From: Betaproteobacteria bacterium SG8_41
GTDB taxonomy: Bacteria > Pseudomonadota > Gammaproteobacteria > Burkholderiales > SG8-41
Reading direction: 5' to 3'
DNA length: 64,000 bases
NCBI GenBank assembly: GCA_001303585.1
Contig: LJTT01000034.1
Span: forward strand, 18,977-82,976
The notes under the pieces were generated by a model. It searched no databases, was not told the DNA's origin, and worked only from the letters and a program-made list of their open reading frames with translations. Positions 54,639-62,623 of the stretch are shown here, piece by piece. How positions within the stretch are numbered: position 1 is the first letter of the stretch; every line of letters starts with the position of its first letter. Position numbers and translations under genes: made by a program.

Positions 54639-56501
54639 TTGGGGTACCCTCGGGCTGCCCCACGGTATATGATTGGCGCCGATAGACGCGGGCTCGAGGA
54701 GCTCGCGCTAGGCGGGAGGACGTCGCGAAGGGGAATGCAAGAAGATCGACAGCGCCGGCTGGGGCGTAACCAAACGAAGCGGGTCGCCGCGATGAGCGAT
54801 CCGCCGTTGTACACCCCCCTCGAGGACGAACGCTTCCGGGCGCTCGTCCAAAACCTCGCTGACATCATTACCATTCACCGCGAGGACGGCACCACTATCT
54901 TCGAGTCTCCGTCCGCCGCGCGGATCCTCGGCTATGGCCCCAACGGCCTGATCAATCGTATCCCCTTCGACGCCATCCACCCTCGCGACCGCCCGGCAGT
55001 GCAGGCGGGCTTCCGGGCGTTGGTGGCGGGGCTGTCGGTAACGGACCCGATCGAGTTCCGCTTCCGTCACGCGGAGGGCCGCTGGATTCATCTCGAGGGC
55101 GTCGGCACCAATCTCCTGCACGAAGCCGGCATCGGTGGCATCGTGCTGACCTCGCGCGACATTACCCAGCGCAAGCTCGCCGAGCAGCGCATCCGGCACG
55201 TCGCGCACCACGATTCGCTCACGGGATTGCCCAACCGCTCACTGCTGCGCGATCGTCTGACCCAGGCCCTCAGCCGCGCGCGCGCGCGCGATGAGCTGGT
55301 CGCCGTGCTCTTCGCCAACCTTGACCGCTTCAAGGCGATCAATGATTCGCTCGGCCACCGCGGCGGCGACGAGCTGTTGAGACAGGTGGCCGAGCGTTTG
55401 CGTGGCTGCGTGCGCGATACCGATACGGTGGCCCGGTTCGGCGGCGACGAGTTCGTGGCCGTGCTGGCGGGCGCCGCAGACCTGCCCGTGGCGGTGGCCG
55501 TGCAAAAGATCCTGCAGGTCTGCGCCGAGCCCTACGACGTCGACGGACAACCGGTCGTCGTCGGGACCAGCATCGGCGTCGCGATGCATCCCGGGGACGG
55601 GCGTGATCCGGATACGCTCCTGCGCAATGCGGACGCGGCGATGTCGGCCGCCAAGTCCGCGGGCCCGGGAACGTTCCGGTTTTTCACCTCCGATCTCAAC
55701 GCGCGCGCTCACGAGAGCCTCCAGATCGAAGCCGGATTGCGCGCGGCAATTCAGAACGGGGGCTTCCAGCTCACCTATCAGCCCAAGGTCGATCTGGCGA
55801 CGCACGCGATCCGCGGCGCGGAGGCGCTCGTGCGCTGGACTCATCGCGGGTTCAACGTGCCGCCGGGCGTGTTCATCCCGATCGCGGAGGAGTCCGGCCT
55901 CATCGTGCAGATCGGCGAACAGGTGCTGGAAAAGGCCTGCCGGCAATGCGCCGAATGGCGCAGGCAGGGCTTCGAGTTTCCGATCGCGGTCAATCTGTCG
56001 CCCCGCCAATTCCGGCAACAGGACCTGCCGGCCACGATTGCCAGGCTGCTGGAGCAGACGGGGCTCCCGCCGCGCTGCCTCGAGCTCGAGATCACCGAGA
56101 GCACGTTCATCGAAGATCCGGACGCGGTGGCGGCAGATATTGCGAACCTGCGCCGGCTCGGCGTGTTGATTTCCATCGACGATTTCGGGACGGGATTCGC
56201 CAGCTTGAACTACATCAGGCGCTTTGCCTTCGACGTGCTGAAAATCGACCGCAGTTTCATCGAGGGCATTCCGCGCGAGCAGGGACACGCTGCAATCGTC
56301 GAAGCCGTGATCATGCTGTCGAATGCCCTCGGCATCGAGGTCGTCGCCGAGGGCGTGGAGACGGCGGAGCAGGTCGCGGTTCTGAGCGCCTACGGCTGCG
56401 GGCTTGCCCAAGGCTACTACTTCAGCCCGCCGGTCACGGCGGAGGAGTTCACGGCGCTCGCGACGCAGCGGCCGTTCGCTTTGCTGCCGGGGTTTGTGTA
56501 A
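54639..56501 (+). CDS. PAS-GGDEF-EAL signalling protein (true start may be 54792)
   Basis: PAS segment, FANLDRFKAINDSLGHRGGDELL, ARFGGDEF, EALVRW, DDFGTGFASLNYIRR, EGVET. Confidence 0.92.
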   Translation: MGYPRAAPRYMIGADRRGLEELALGGRTSRRGMQEDRQRRLGRNQTKRVAAMSDPPLYTPLEDERFRALVQNLADIITIHREDGTTIFESPSAARILGYGPNGLINRIPFDAIHPRDRPAVQAGFRALVAGLSVTDPIEFRFRHAEGRWIHLEGVGTNLLHEAGIGGIVLTSRDITQRKLAEQRIRHVAHHDSLTGLPNRSLLRDRLTQALSRARARDELVAVLFANLDRFKAINDSLGHRGGDELLRQVAERLRGCVRDTDTVARFGGDEFVAVLAGAADLPVAVAVQKILQVCAEPYDVDGQPVVVGTSIGVAMHPGDGRDPDTLLRNADAAMSAAKSAGPGTFRFFTSDLNARAHESLQIEAGLRAAIQNGGFQLTYQPKVDLATHAIRGAEALVRWTHRGFNVPPGVFIPIAEESGLIVQIGEQVLEKACRQCAEWRRQGFEFPIAVNLSPRQFRQQDLPATIARLLEQTGLPPRCLELEITESTFIEDPDAVAADIANLRRLGVLISIDDFGTGFASLNYIRRFAFDVLKIDRSFIEGIPREQGHAAIVEAVIMLSNALGIEVVAEGVETAEQVAVLSAYGCGLAQGYYFSPPVTAEEFTALATQRPFALLPGFV

Positions 56502-56662
56502 GGCCTCGTCTACCACCTGCATCGGGAAAGCCTGACGGGCGACCAGCGACCCGTGACCGGGAAACTCAGCGCCCGCCGCGGTTCCGGTTTACGATTAACG
56601 GGTGGCGGGCGGAAAATAGCGCCGGTCCGATTCTTCAAAAGAGCGAAAGGATCCGCTCAACC

Positions 56663-57316
56663 ATGCCATATATCCTGGGATTTCTTCTTGCTGCTTTCCT
56701 GGCGCTGAGCGCGTCTGCCCAGCCGTCATTCCCGGAGCTCGAGTCACGAGCTGCGGCCCTGGAAGCGCTGGAGGACGACGACGCGCGCTATCGCGCCGCC
56801 GGCGTGCTTTATATCGGGCGCACGGGCCTTGCTGCGGACGGGCCGCTGCTGGTAAAACGCCTGTCCGACGAGCATCCCGTCGTGCGGGCGGTGGCCGAGC
56901 AGAGCGTCTGGCGCGTGTGGAGCCGCTCGGGCGACGCCGAGACCGACCAATTGCTGGCGGCGGGTGTCGAGGAGATGGAAATCGGTCTGTACAACGAGGC
57001 CATCCATACGTTCAGCAACGTCATCAAGCGCAAGCCGGACTTTGCCGAGGGCTGGAACAAGCGCGCAACCGCCCTGTTCCTGGCCGGCGATTTGCGCGCC
57101 TCGCTGGCCGACTGCGATGAGGTGGTGAAGCGCAACCCGCAGCATTTCGGCGCGCTCTCCGGCTACGGGCAGATTTACTTTCGTCTGAAAGAGTACAAAA
57201 AGTCGATCGAGTACTTCCGGCGCGCGCTCGAGGTGAATCCGAACCTGACCGAGCTCGAAACCGTCATACGGCGTCTCGAGAGGCTGATGCGGAGCAAGGG
57301 GCAAAGGGCAGTCTAG
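56663..57316 (+). CDS. Tetratricopeptide-repeat secreted protein
   Basis: Signal peptide; EEMEIGLYNEAIHTFSNVIKRKPDFAEGWNKRATALFLAGDLRASLADCDEVVKRNPQHFGAL. Confidence 0.85.
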   Translation: MPYILGFLLAAFLALSASAQPSFPELESRAAALEALEDDDARYRAAGVLYIGRTGLAADGPLLVKRLSDEHPVVRAVAEQSVWRVWSRSGDAETDQLLAAGVEEMEIGLYNEAIHTFSNVIKRKPDFAEGWNKRATALFLAGDLRASLADCDEVVKRNPQHFGALSGYGQIYFRLKEYKKSIEYFRRALEVNPNLTELETVIRRLERLMRSKGQRAV

Positions 57317-57681: not shown

Positions 57682-58317
57682 TTGAAGGACCTCCCTGCTC
57701 AGATCTTGACGGCGACCATTTGGGCCTATTGGCTCGGCGTGGGGGTGATGATCGTTCGCGTCCGGCGCCATGCCCGGAAGTCCCGCACGCTCCGCGTCCT
57801 CGTGCCCGAGGACAGGCTGGAGCGCTACATGTGGGTGATCTGGGTGCCTCTGGTCGCCGCGTGGAACCTGCTTCCCTACCTCGCGCTCTCGCAGACTCAC
57901 CCACTGCTCGCGGTGCCGGATTTTGCGCGCGAGCTCGCGCCGTATGCGGCATTTCGCTGGCTCGCGGCGGTGTGCGCGGTGCTTCTGCTTGCATTGACCG
58001 TGGAATGCTGGGCGCGCATGGGAAGGAATTGGCGCATGGGGGTGAGCCTCGAACAGCATACCGAGCTTGTGACGCAGGGACTCTACCGGAGCATCCGCCA
58101 TCCGATCTATACGCTGAGCATACTGCTCATGTTCTGCTCCGTGGGGATCATTCCGACCCTGCCGATGCTGGTGATCGCGGCCATGCACGTAACGCTGATG
58201 GTCCTGAAGGCGCGGAATGAAGAGCGCCATCTGCGCAGGACGCACGGTGATGCGTACGCAGCGTATGCAGCGAGCACCGGACGCTTTTTTCCACGGTTAA
58301 CTTCGCGCCGGCCGTGA
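57682..58317 (+). CDS. Isoprenylcysteine methyltransferase-like (ICMT/PEMT) membrane protein, TTG start
   Basis: TELVTQGLYRSIRHPIYTLSILLMF; NEERHLRRTHGDAYAAYAASTGRFFP. Confidence 0.85.
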   Translation: MKDLPAQILTATIWAYWLGVGVMIVRVRRHARKSRTLRVLVPEDRLERYMWVIWVPLVAAWNLLPYLALSQTHPLLAVPDFARELAPYAAFRWLAAVCAVLLLALTVECWARMGRNWRMGVSLEQHTELVTQGLYRSIRHPIYTLSILLMFCSVGIIPTLPMLVIAAMHVTLMVLKARNEERHLRRTHGDAYAAYAASTGRFFPRLTSRRP

Positions 58318-59429
58318 CATTTTCGCGGGAGCCCAATTCAGCATCGTCCAAATCGACTCGCCGTGCCCGCCGGCGGGCCGGCCAGGTGCTTGCAGGTCTG
58401 CTGGCGGGCGCGGCGCTTGCGACCGGCGCCTGTGCAGAAGCAGGATCGGCAGCGACGTCGGGCCAGGTCGCGGCGCGGAGCGAGATTACTGCAAACGCAC
58501 ACGCCAGTGCCCGCGACGAGGCACTCGCAGACCGAATCCTCGCCCTCGATCCGGAGCACATAGCCGAGCGCGATGTGCGAGAGGCGCTCGCACGCGGACC
58601 GGCGCCGCGGATCATCAACCTGCACGGCAGCGTCGCGCTCATAACGATGCGGGAGTTCGCGCAGTTCCTGGTCACGATGGGATATCCGGAAGGGCAAGTC
58701 CGGAATCCGAAGGACGGTAGTTTTTCCTATAGCAGCTATGCCGAAAGCGAGCAGCTTGCGGGCATGTTGGCCTGGTATTACGAGCGCGAGGGGATGATGC
58801 CGATGCTCATTGGGCACAGCCAGGGCGGCATGATCGTCATAAAGACCCTGCACGATCTCGCAGATCCCGCTCGCGGTCCGATCCCGGTGTGGGATCCGAT
58901 GAACGAACAGCGCGAAGCGCGCTCGACGATCCGGGATCCGGTGAGCGCGCAGGAGCGGCCGGTGCGCGGACTGAAGGTTCCGTATGCCGCCGCGATTGCC
59001 ACGGGAAAGCTGTTTCGCGTGCTGCTCGGACAGTGGGATATGCTGGAGAAACTGCGCGCAATTCCGGACACCGTCGAGGAGTTCACCGGCTTCTTCATCG
59101 AGTGGGACCTGCTGGCCGGAACTTTCCAGGGCGCCGAACCGTACCGGGCGACCGGCTCCGCGGCGGTGCGTACGGTGACGCTGCCGGCCGATTACAGCCA
59201 CATCGGCCTCCCCTTGACGATGCATCTGGCGACCAACCGCGTCACCCGCGACTGGATTAACGCGTATGTGCCGATCTCAGACCAGCCCGCGGCGCCCACC
59301 GGCCTCGATGCCGACACGACGAACATTCTGCATGCAGCAGAGCTGTGGTACAGCATCAAGAAACACTGGTGCATCCAGGCACAGCGTCTGATCCGGGCCC
59401 GCCGGAGCGGAGGCCGCGGGGGCGTTTGA
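58314..59429 (+). CDS. Putative alpha/beta hydrolase (paralog A)
   Basis: MLIGHSQGGMIVIKTLHDL (GxSxG); overlaps upstream gene by 4 nt; paralogous to 60726-61835. Confidence 0.7.
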   Translation: MTFSREPNSASSKSTRRARRRAGQVLAGLLAGAALATGACAEAGSAATSGQVAARSEITANAHASARDEALADRILALDPEHIAERDVREALARGPAPRIINLHGSVALITMREFAQFLVTMGYPEGQVRNPKDGSFSYSSYAESEQLAGMLAWYYEREGMMPMLIGHSQGGMIVIKTLHDLADPARGPIPVWDPMNEQREARSTIRDPVSAQERPVRGLKVPYAAAIATGKLFRVLLGQWDMLEKLRAIPDTVEEFTGFFIEWDLLAGTFQGAEPYRATGSAAVRTVTLPADYSHIGLPLTMHLATNRVTRDWINAYVPISDQPAAPTGLDADTTNILHAAELWYSIKKHWCIQAQRLIRARRSGGRGGV

Positions 59430-59430
59430 G

Positions 59431-60729
59431 ATGAGTGGCCGACTGAACCTGTTCCAGGCCATGATGGTGCGATGGCGGGCGCTGCACCCGTACAACGCAG
59501 TGCACGTCGTCAGGGTCAATCAGCCGCTGGATCGCGGCCGCCTCGAACGCGAGATCAATGACGAGCTCCGCGAACTCGGACTGACCGGTTTCGTGCTCGA
59601 GCGTGATCGGCAACGGTTTCGTTTTGAGGGTGGCCCGGCGGGTGTCGTGCTGCGAGTCACCGCCTGCGGCGAGTATCCGGAGAATGTGCTCCGGTCGGAG
59701 ATGGAGGCGGAGCTGAATGCATCGTTTGCCGTTGAGGGGCCGATGCACCCATTCCGGTTTTTTGCAGTGGACGGCGGCGGGTCGTTTGATCTCGGCCTCG
59801 CCTATGATCATTTCCTTGCCGGTGGCGACTCGATCGCCGTGGTCCTGGGCAGTATCGTGGATCGCTACCTGGGGGGCGTGACTGCGGACAGGATTGCGCG
59901 GCCGCTCGACGTTTATCCGGAGACCTTTGTGCGCTTGTTCCTGCAGCAGGCGACGACTGTGCTTCGCGGAGTGTTGAGCCTTCCGCGAATCATGTCGAGC
60001 TGCCGCCGCTCGTTTCGACCGCCGGCTGCCGCGGCTGACGACGACGCCAATGGTTTCGTCCATTTTCGTGGGGAGGAGGGAGAGCTTGCCGCGCTCATCC
60101 AAACAGGAAAAGAATGGGGCGTAACGCTCAACGATATCTTCCTGGCCGCAGCGCTCCTCGCGCTGTCGCCGCTTGCGGCCGCGCGGACCAAGGCCCCGCG
60201 GCGGCGGGAACTCGCGGTGGCGAGCGTCGTCAACATCCGTCCGGAGCTGCAGCCCGAGCCGAGACGGACCTTCGGCCAGTGCCTGGCCTCGTTCCGTGTG
60301 TCGCACCTGGTGCCGGAAGGAATCAACCTGCGGAAGCTCGCCCAGGACATTCACGTCGAGACCGATCGCATCAAGCGCAGCAAGCTCTACCTTGTAACGT
60401 TATTGGCTATCGGTCTGGCGGGGTTGTTGTGGCCCCGGCTCTCCGATCGCCAGCGTCGGGGTTTTTTCTTCAAGCACTATCCGGTATGGGCCGGGGTTAC
60501 CATGCTCAATATCAATGCCTACTGGACGAGGCCCGGGATCGCGAACCCTCCAATCGAGTATCTGCGCACAGCCTCGACCGGCCCGCTGTCGCCGATCGTA
60601 TTCGCGTTAACGACGGCGGGCGATGCCCTGCAAGTGGGGATCTCCTATCGGCGGTCCGCGTTCTCGAGGAGGACAATCGAAGATCTCGCTGCCCGATTTC
60701 GCTCAAGCTATAGAGGTGCATTGCAATGA
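59431..60729 (+). CDS. Condensation/wax-ester-synthase-like acyltransferase
   Basis: FDLGLAYDHFLAGGDSIAVVLGSIVDRYL resembles HHxxxDG region of CoA-dependent acyltransferase superfamily; 432 aa. Confidence 0.6.
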   Translation: MSGRLNLFQAMMVRWRALHPYNAVHVVRVNQPLDRGRLEREINDELRELGLTGFVLERDRQRFRFEGGPAGVVLRVTACGEYPENVLRSEMEAELNASFAVEGPMHPFRFFAVDGGGSFDLGLAYDHFLAGGDSIAVVLGSIVDRYLGGVTADRIARPLDVYPETFVRLFLQQATTVLRGVLSLPRIMSSCRRSFRPPAAAADDDANGFVHFRGEEGELAALIQTGKEWGVTLNDIFLAAALLALSPLAAARTKAPRRRELAVASVVNIRPELQPEPRRTFGQCLASFRVSHLVPEGINLRKLAQDIHVETDRIKRSKLYLVTLLAIGLAGLLWPRLSDRQRRGFFFKHYPVWAGVTMLNINAYWTRPGIANPPIEYLRTASTGPLSPIVFALTTAGDALQVGISYRRSAFSRRTIEDLAARFRSSYRGALQ

Positions 60730-61835
60730 TTCGTCGGTTTCACCCTTTCCCCCTGCTCCTGGTCGTCGTCCTGGCGCTCGCCGCGAGCGCCTGTTCCGTC
60801 GCACCGAAGAGCGGTTCTTCCGCCGCGCAGCTCGAGCCGAGGCGGGATGTCCTGTCGTCGGTGAGTCTGGGGCCGGACCTGGAGGAACGGATCCTGGCGC
60901 TCGATCCGGAACGTATCTCGGATACGGACGTGGGCACGATCCTGGGAGCGGCGCCCGCTCCGCAAATCATCGGTTTGCATGGCGGCATCTATCCGGTTTA
61001 CCTGGCGATGTCCACTTTCGCGAGGTTCCTGCGCGACATGGGATATCCGTACGACCGGATCCGGCATCCTGGCGACGGGCGGCTTTCGCACAGTCCCTAC
61101 GAAAACAGCGCGCAGATCGCGGGACTCATCGCGTGGTATTACGAACGTGACGGGCTGCGCCCGATGATTATCGGGCACAGCCAGGGCGGGATGCAGGCGA
61201 TCAAGGTTCTGCACGAGCTCAACGGAGAGTTCTCGGACAGCATACCCGTCTGGAATCCCCTGACTGACGCCGCGGAGGACCGCACGACGATCATCGATCC
61301 ATTCACCCGGCGCGAGCGTCCCGTGATCGGGATTTCCACCTCGTACGTCTCGACGGTGGGGGCGGGCGGGGCGGCTTTCCTGCTCCCGAACCAGTGGATC
61401 ATGGCTGGACGGCTGCGCACGATTCCCAACACCACGCAGGAGTTCACCGGGTTCTTCATCAGCGTGGACCTGTGGGCGTGGAACGCGCCCGGCGCGGCGG
61501 AATCGGATGGGTATCGCCACAACGGGACGGCCAAGGTGCGCAATGTGTCGTTACCCGAAAGCTACAACCACGTCTTTGTGCCGGTGACACGGCATCTCGC
61601 CCGCGATCCGAAAATGCGCGCCTGGATTAACAACTACGCTCCATCCTCGCGGGACATGCCGCCGATCCCCGAGGGCGACAGCGATAATCTGCTGTGGGCC
61701 GCGGACGTGTGGTTCAGTATCAAGAAGCACTGGTGCCTGGAGCTGCAGCGCCTGATCCGCGCGAAGCAGGCGATGGGGCGCGCGCGCCCGGCACCGGACG
61801 CGGAGGAATTGCGACCCGCCTCCAGTGTGATGTGA
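60726..61835 (+). CDS. Putative alpha/beta hydrolase lipoprotein (paralog B)
   Basis: LALAASACSVAP lipobox; MIIGHSQGGMQAIKVLHEL; SIKKHWCLELQRLIRAKQA shared with paralog A; ATGA overlap with upstream gene. Confidence 0.7.
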   Translation: MIRRFHPFPLLLVVVLALAASACSVAPKSGSSAAQLEPRRDVLSSVSLGPDLEERILALDPERISDTDVGTILGAAPAPQIIGLHGGIYPVYLAMSTFARFLRDMGYPYDRIRHPGDGRLSHSPYENSAQIAGLIAWYYERDGLRPMIIGHSQGGMQAIKVLHELNGEFSDSIPVWNPLTDAAEDRTTIIDPFTRRERPVIGISTSYVSTVGAGGAAFLLPNQWIMAGRLRTIPNTTQEFTGFFISVDLWAWNAPGAAESDGYRHNGTAKVRNVSLPESYNHVFVPVTRHLARDPKMRAWINNYAPSSRDMPPIPEGDSDNLLWAADVWFSIKKHWCLELQRLIRAKQAMGRARPAPDAEELRPASSVM

Positions 61836-61951: not shown

Positions 61952-62623
61952 ATGGTGTGCCTCATGCAGATACACATCCCGGATCCGGACTACACCACCT
62001 CCGAGCGCGCCCGAGCCAACTTCTGGCTGGCGGCTAGGATCGCATCAGGCTTCGTCGCTCTGCTCTGGGTTGTCCAGTTCCTGAGCTGGGGGCTGGATCT
62101 CGAGTTGGAGGGCTTCGGTGTCCGGCCTCGCCAGTCCGCGGGGCTGCCTGGCATCCTGCTCGCGCCGCTTCTGCACGGCGGATTGTCCCATCTGATTGCC
62201 AACTCCGCGCCGATGCTGGTTCTGGGGACGGCGATGCTCTATCTCTATCCGAATTCAGCGGTAAAGGTGCTGCCGGCGGTTTACCTGGGGCCAGGCGTCG
62301 CCGTATGGCTCTTCGGACAGCCGTTTTCCGTCCACATCGGCGCCAGCGGACTGGTTTACGGGCTCGTCAGTTATATCTTTGCGGCCGGCGTCATCCGGCG
62401 CGACCGGCGCGCGATCGCCGCATCGATGCTGGTCTACTTTCTGTACGGCACGCTGGTCTGGGGCGTGCTGCCGATCAGAGCCGGGGTTTCCTGGGAAACT
62501 CACCTGGCGGCCGCATTGATCGGCCTGGCGATGGCAATTGCATTCCGGCATGTGGACATACCGCCGCGCAAACGCTACGACTGGGAGGATGAAAACGACG
62601 GCTCTGATGAGAGCAACTGCTGA
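61952..62623 (+). CDS. Rhomboid family intramembrane serine protease
   Basis: LLHGGLSHLIANSAPMLVLG; VHIGASGLVYGLVSYIF (GASG); THLAAALIGLAMAIAFRHVD. Confidence 0.85.
   Translation: MVCLMQIHIPDPDYTTSERARANFWLAARIASGFVALLWVVQFLSWGLDLELEGFGVRPRQSAGLPGILLAPLLHGGLSHLIANSAPMLVLGTAMLYLYPNSAVKVLPAVYLGPGVAVWLFGQPFSVHIGASGLVYGLVSYIFAAGVIRRDRRAIAASMLVYFLYGTLVWGVLPIRAGVSWETHLAAALIGLAMAIAFRHVDIPPRKRYDWEDENDGSDESNC

Follow-up and report, generated by a model that had tools for sequence, protein, structure and literature searches.

The stretch studied here, 64,000 nucleotides of Betaproteobacteria bacterium SG8_41 (hereafter the window), belongs to contig C14 of the draft genome G000 (3.75 Mb) and carries an operon of four genes on one strand. 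These encode, in order, an ICMT-like methyltransferase, a hydrolase (A), an acyltransferase and a second hydrolase (B), with junctions of -4, +1 and -4 nt (Table 1; gene starts are those of the open reading frame, ORF, calls). What a sequence-only reading had described in this operon was confirmed, namely the positions of four coupled ORFs with 4-nt overlaps and one small gap, the GHSQGGM motif and similar C termini of two diverged hydrolases, the DHFLAGGDS core of the acyltransferase and the lipobox of hydrolase B. None of the four proteins reached an NCBIfam equivalog cut-off, and a promoter and terminator scan gave matches no more numerous than in shuffled sequence.

The four-gene operon and its proteins

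This gene set recurs, with its order unchanged, in three other genomes of the order Burkholderiales (G1173, G1101 and SJ14, which is presumably G1135), so that the operon is more than a chance arrangement. Conservation of the neighbourhood, which the sequence-only reading had proposed as a check, was thus found in all four carriers. A scan of GTDB contigs retrieved one full locus, with the four genes in order, in the Burkholderiales metagenome-assembled genome (MAG) SJ14. Elsewhere the operon proteins are rare. A search of 300 genomes sampled from the order detected no further copy of the acyltransferase, and among 399 genomes sampled across the phylum it gave one weak fragment match only. None of the 73 other family genomes, nine congeners included, matched the hydrolase profile, and among 369 genomes of the class the profile retrieved a generic hydrolase and a single homologue that stands alone in G379. 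Plasmid-borne relatives of the acyltransferase and hydrolase B numbered zero. The carriers are draft genomes or MAGs, and the samples of the order and phylum are partial.

The methyltransferase is an integral-membrane protein of the ICMT/PEMT type, with about four hydrophobic segments in its hydropathy profile and with the motifs RHPIY and KARNEERHL kept in the alignment of four homologues. It passes the Pfam cut-offs for PF04191 (38.9 bits, cut-off 25) and PF04140 (34 bits, cut-off 24). Membrane topology, the RHPxY and NEE motifs and these two families are shared with bacterial ICMT-family methyltransferases, including LmtA of Leptospira, but the protein does not reach the curated equivalog cut-off of either the ICMT model NF040696 (75.4 bits, cut-off 160) or its second NCBIfam match, the LmtA model TIGR04571 (36.9 bits, cut-off 325).

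The acyltransferase is a member of the condensation/PapA/WES (CAT-fold) superfamily. The window protein itself matches PF00668 (E=1.9e-5) and PF16911 PapA_C of the PapA5 family (E=4.4e-4, 20.2 bits, gathering cut-off 30) below threshold; across the homologues, PF00668 is found in all four and PapA_C in three, and the profile of the four matches the PapA5-type structure 8s6l (E=4.7e-4). Structure prediction, also suggested by the sequence-only reading, gave condensation domains as the top Foldseek matches (probability 1.00), obtained with an AlphaFold model of low confidence (mean predicted local distance difference test score, pLDDT, about 42). In place of the standard HHxxxDGxS the protein has YDHFLAGGDS (DHFLAGGDS at residues 126-134), and in the alignment to 8s6l HIIADG stands opposite HxxAGGDS. 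His127, corresponding to the catalytic second His of HHxxxDG, is invariant in the four homologues, as is an Asp-Ser pair (133-134) located two residues further on than the Asp of the standard motif.

The same similarities bear on the possibility that the operon belongs to wax-ester/triacylglycerol or polyhydroxyalkanoate (PHA) metabolism, an outcome that the sequence-only reading had named as one that would speak against it. Three of the four acyltransferase homologues show weak similarity to the wax ester synthase/DGAT model TIGR02946, but the score, 21.6 bits where the cut-off is 309.95, places the protein outside that family, the canonical HHxxxDG is absent, and PHA synthase, depolymerase and phasin families were not found in the operon by Pfam and NCBIfam scans. 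We consider this explanation extremely improbable.

Hydrolases A and B are alpha/beta-hydrolase-like paralogues with about 46% identity overall, both carrying GHSQGGM; their C termini are SIKKHWCIQAQRLIRA in A and SIKKHWCLELQRLIRA in B. Since A-A and B-B identities between G000 and SJ14 are 61-66% and A-B identities across the two genomes are 47-52%, the duplication, judged from the sequences, predates the split of the carriers. Hydrolase A has no match to a Pfam family, and hydrolase B stands just under the cut-off of PF12697 Abhydrolase_6 (E=9.4e-5, 23.6 bits, cut-off 26.3). Neither found a significant relative in the PDB. Ser152, Asp248 and His282 (numbering of B) are invariant in 9 of 9 hydrolase homologues, in the arrangement of a GxSxG elbow with downstream Asp and His; Asp248 is the putative acid residue of the triad, Asp191 being equally invariant.

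The lipobox of hydrolase B (VVVLALAASAC, Cys23) fits the PROSITE-type lipoprotein pattern and is present in the four B orthologues of the carriers. It had been noted for B alone; however, hydrolase A is probably exported as well, and may be a lipoprotein. Its copies have signal-like N termini, and the window copy matches the lipoprotein pattern with the Cys at residue 40, after a long Arg-rich N terminus. The pattern is found in three of the four copies of A (window, SJ14 and G1101, its position being atypical in the window and SJ14) and not in that of G1173. The lone homologue in G379 is a lipoprotein too, 41-46% identical to the hydrolases. It sits between enolase-phosphatase-like and flavin monooxygenase-like genes, and no acyltransferase, ICMT or fatty-acid synthase (FAS) cluster was found near it.

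A seven-gene fatty-acid synthase linked to the operon

In SJ14, a set of seven genes starts ~100 nt after the operon and encodes a short-chain dehydrogenase/reductase (SDR), FabG, an acyl carrier protein (ACP), a FabA-like dehydratase, two ketosynthases and a fusion of AcpS with an LpxL-type acyltransferase. The operon and this FAS form a contiguous 11-gene cluster in SJ14/G1135, G1173 and G1101, genomes of two families. The end of hydrolase B and the start of the first FAS gene overlap by 4 nt in G1101 and are 47 nt apart in G1173 (some FAS gene ends in the junction measurements are match ends and not stop codons). G000 carries the same seven genes on another contig (C130), unlinked to the operon. 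Among 74 genomes of the family, operon and FAS were each found in G000 alone; its FAS dehydratase scored 612 bits, against a FabZ-like background of <=25 bits in the others. A search with this dehydratase in 399 genomes of the order gave 6 carriers in three families, 4 of which have the operon, and two of the four operon carriers (the window genome and SJ14) had come to light independently of any search for the FAS. Because of the contiguity in three genomes and the co-occurrence, operon and FAS are best read, from their sequences, as one pathway. There is good support for this linkage; substrates and chemistry are what we infer.

The first SDR of the set is a FabL enoyl reductase: the G000 copy scores 353.6 bits against a cut-off of 328 for NF005975, and the best PDB relative is the FabL structure 3oic. 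The AcpS:LpxL fusion is a single ORF with matches to Lip_A_acyltrans (140.9 bits) and ACPS (34.4 bits), as established by Pfam scans in two carriers and by alignment in six. Both ketosynthases have the Cys and two His, the dehydratase has a FabA-type His/Asp pair and the ACP retains its Ser. The second ketosynthase shows an unusual active-site context, N[AG]C[IV]TNH, and HxNGT replacing HGTxT, features that are kept in six genomes; since its Cys is retained, it does not obviously qualify as a chain-length factor. The FAS block of G000 is followed immediately by what looks, by eye, like an ICMT/DUF1295-like membrane methyltransferase spread over two frames, a pseudogene or an assembly frameshift, the longer ORF of which had no Pfam match.

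We considered whether either half of the system in G000 could lie on a contaminating contig, and rejected this for both. Genes of the window have 63-84% identical orthologues in congeners. C130 carries the only HtpX gene of the genome, 89% identical to that of the congener G347, 74-81% to those of the other seven congeners with a copy and 57-65% to those of carriers in families f11 and f39; since this sole HtpX is congener-like and the GC and tetranucleotide profiles match, C130 is part of G000. The FAS proteins have a different affinity. Those of C130 are 86.4% identical to those of G010, of family f11, while G010 and SJ14, which belong to one genus, share 74.4%; the HtpX identity between G000 and G010 is 65.4%. 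Going by these values, the FAS half was most likely gained by G000 horizontally, from or near family f11, in what was likely a recent transfer of the seven-gene FAS/LPLAT block. The operon half is located elsewhere in G000, beside genes with congener orthologues. No convincing operon remnants were seen beside the FAS in G010, G271 or C130. In evolution the two halves can come apart, yet they have a tendency to occur together.

Table 1. Positions of the operon genes and of other features described in the text (window positions unless a locus, L, is named)
Feature	Position	Strand	Remarks
ICMT-like methyltransferase, gene 1 of operon	57682-58317	+	TTG start, 211 aa
Hydrolase A, gene 2 of operon	58314-59429	+	GTG start
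Acyltransferase, gene 3 of operon	59431-60729	+	ATG start
Hydrolase B, gene 4 of operon	60726-61835	+	ATG start
Seven-gene FAS block of G000	L017:9592-16237	-	contig C130
AcpS:LpxL-type fusion ORF	L017:9592-11082	-	Pfam scan
AcpS:LpxL-type fusion ORF	L004:16035-17288	+	Pfam scan
Second ketosynthase	L017:10842-12110	-	equivalents in other carriers
Broken ICMT/DUF1295-like methyltransferase	L017:9029-9661	-	two frames, by eye
Lone hydrolase homologue in G379	L018:8934-9965		lipoprotein
Rhomboid	61952-62623		
PAS-GGDEF-EAL-type and HEAT/TPR proteins	54639-57316		5' of operon

A candidate envelope lipid pathway

The operon probably supplies the tailoring steps of an 11-gene pathway that makes an envelope acyl-lipid, with the self-contained type II FAS as its other half. 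The sequence-only reading had proposed an undescribed envelope lipid or acyl-ester modification system. That idea fits the evidence, but not as a stand-alone four-gene system: the FAS is contiguous with it in three genomes and present, unlinked, in G000. What is directly seen is the order and co-occurrence of the genes, the protein families, the conserved active-site residues and the export signals. Starting from these, the AcpS domain would charge the dedicated ACP, and the cycle of ketosynthases, FabG, dehydratase and FabL would build a chain that is completely reduced and probably longer than usual or with an unusual starter, which the LpxL-like domain would transfer to a lipid or glycolipid acceptor. 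On the cytoplasmic side, the PapA-like acyltransferase could then add a further acyl ester from acyl-ACP or acyl-coenzyme A by means of its catalytic His. The exported Ser-Asp-His enzymes A and B, anchored in the membrane or as lipoproteins, would rearrange or trim esters between lipids, and the ICMT-like enzyme would cap a carboxylate or a phosphate with a methyl group. What we infer is which molecule accepts the chain, how long the chain is, in what order the steps occur and that A and B transacylate rather than hydrolyse.

The role suggested for A and B is by analogy with Chp2 of mycobacteria, a membrane-anchored alpha/beta hydrolase that transesterifies acyltrehaloses, forming polyacyltrehalose (PAT) from the diacyltrehalose (DAT) in whose synthesis PapA3 takes part at a previous step (PMC4183827). 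The PapA3/Chp2 (PAT) and PapA/Chp1 (sulfolipid) loci likewise combine a PapA-type acyltransferase with a membrane-anchored alpha/beta hydrolase, which in mycobacteria transesterifies (PMC4183827). In contrast to those loci, the present one has no detectable sequence membership in these families and contains two hydrolases, B being a lipoprotein, with a type II FAS instead of a type I polyketide synthase and a methyltransferase instead of the sulfotransferase and MmpL genes.

The cluster can be likened more broadly to envelope lipid clusters that associate a dedicated type II FAS with an LPLAT. The rhizobial acpXL-lpxXL cluster, for the very-long-chain fatty acid of lipid A, has in common with it a dedicated ACP, a dehydratase, two FabF-type ketosynthases, a reductase and a terminal LpxL-family acyltransferase in one block (PMC11901934), and a gene set of this type lies side by side in the seven-gene FAS of 6 genomes. 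Here, however, FabL and FabG replace the alcohol-dehydrogenase-like gene, AcpS is fused to the acyltransferase and the four-gene module is added. Lipid A as the acceptor is the chief rival: the FAS would make a very-long-chain acyl group for lipid A, and the operon would add an ester and a methyl-phosphate cap to the lipopolysaccharide. This version draws on the LpxL-family acyltransferase in which the FAS ends, as does acpXL-fabZXL-fabF2XL-fabF1XL-adhlA2XL-lpxXL (PMC11901934), and on the second NCBIfam match of the methyltransferase, LmtA being the lipid A phosphate methyltransferase of Leptospira. Yet the LmtA match, at 36.9 bits, is far from its cut-off of 325, the LpxL-like domain falls well short of all lipid A equivalog cut-offs and matches phosphatidylinositol mannoside acyltransferases too, and nothing specific to lipid A was found within the cluster, which makes this version unlikely in our view.

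Aryl polyene (APE) clusters such as that of E. coli CFT073 resemble the cluster core as well, with a ketosynthase pair, ACP, ketoreductase (FabG here), dehydratase, LPLAT and methyltransferase (PMC8253772), and one could imagine an aryl-polyene-like or polyketide pigment whose conjugated chain is made by the FAS and anchored to the outer membrane by the operon. Against such a pigment stands the FabL-type enoyl reductase, which is over its curated cut-off and implies that the chains are saturated. None of the 11 genes was seen to encode the acyl-ACP synthetase, glycosyltransferase, LolA-like protein or RND exporter known from E. coli. An APE cluster, lacking enoyl reduction and having aromatic starter activation and an envelope exporter, differs in these respects from the present one. 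We give little credit to this explanation, which appears very unlikely.

A degradative or turnover role would make A and B exported esterases that hydrolyse an acyl ester (a storage lipid or a polyester), the acyltransferase and methyltransferase recycling or detoxifying the products. Two secreted or lipoprotein GxSxG enzymes, a cluster without an exporter and a hydrolase homologue standing by itself in G379 would all suit it, but a biosynthetic FAS directly adjoins the operon in three genomes, which represent two families, and every carrier has an acyltransferase gene placed between those of the hydrolases. We judge this role quite unlikely.

Several observations weigh against the proposed envelope lipid pathway itself. 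The cluster is without a known product, and an exporter gene is absent from it. G010 and G271 carry the FAS set without the operon nearby, and a search for the acyltransferase across both genomes found none (the hydrolases were not searched genome-wide there); the FAS can therefore exist without the operon. In G000 the halves lie on separate contigs, and the FAS appears to have come by horizontal transfer. The AlphaFold models, built from 2- and 4-sequence alignments, were poor (mean pLDDT about 42, low confidence), and that of the hydrolase gave no fold match, so that the predicted hydrolase fold rests on the motifs and one weak Pfam match. Finally, the Asp of HHxxxDG is replaced by Gly or Ala in 4 of 4 acyltransferase homologues; together with the conserved Asp-Ser pair, the same replacement makes this enzyme a natural test of the role of that Asp in the condensation/PapA/WES superfamily.

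More tentatively, the cluster might represent a new class of Gram-negative envelope lipid, in which a chain from a FabL-containing type II FAS would be anchored by the AcpS:LpxL fusion and remodelled outside the cytoplasm by a four-gene module made up of a methyltransferase, two transacylases that are exported and a CAT-fold acyltransferase able to work although the canonical Asp is missing, with the whole pathway moving between families in two separable halves. The operon members pass no specific functional model, and what sets the cluster apart from those compared above is the addition of the four-gene module and the change in the acyltransferase motif. No matching published cluster was found in the open-access literature (subscription journals and preprints were not covered). 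Dedicated pathways from FAS to envelope are involved in the barrier properties of the outer membrane in rhizobia and in the coating of biofilms in APE producers; if true, the 11-gene version would add a lipid type to these, and its product could be detected by simple lipidomics.

Genes flanking the operon

The region 5' of the operon encodes a PAS-GGDEF-EAL-type protein, recognized by eye, and a HEAT/TPR protein whose congener orthologues do not adjoin the rhomboid. The rhomboid gene itself, mentioned beside the operon in the sequence-only reading, was considered as an operon partner and rejected: it is present in all five good-quality genomes of the genus (that of the window included), and the hydrolase profile is absent from nine other congeners, so it is not part of the system. 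Kept within the genus without the operon at 72-77% identity, it is best matched by Rhomboid/rhombosortase models.

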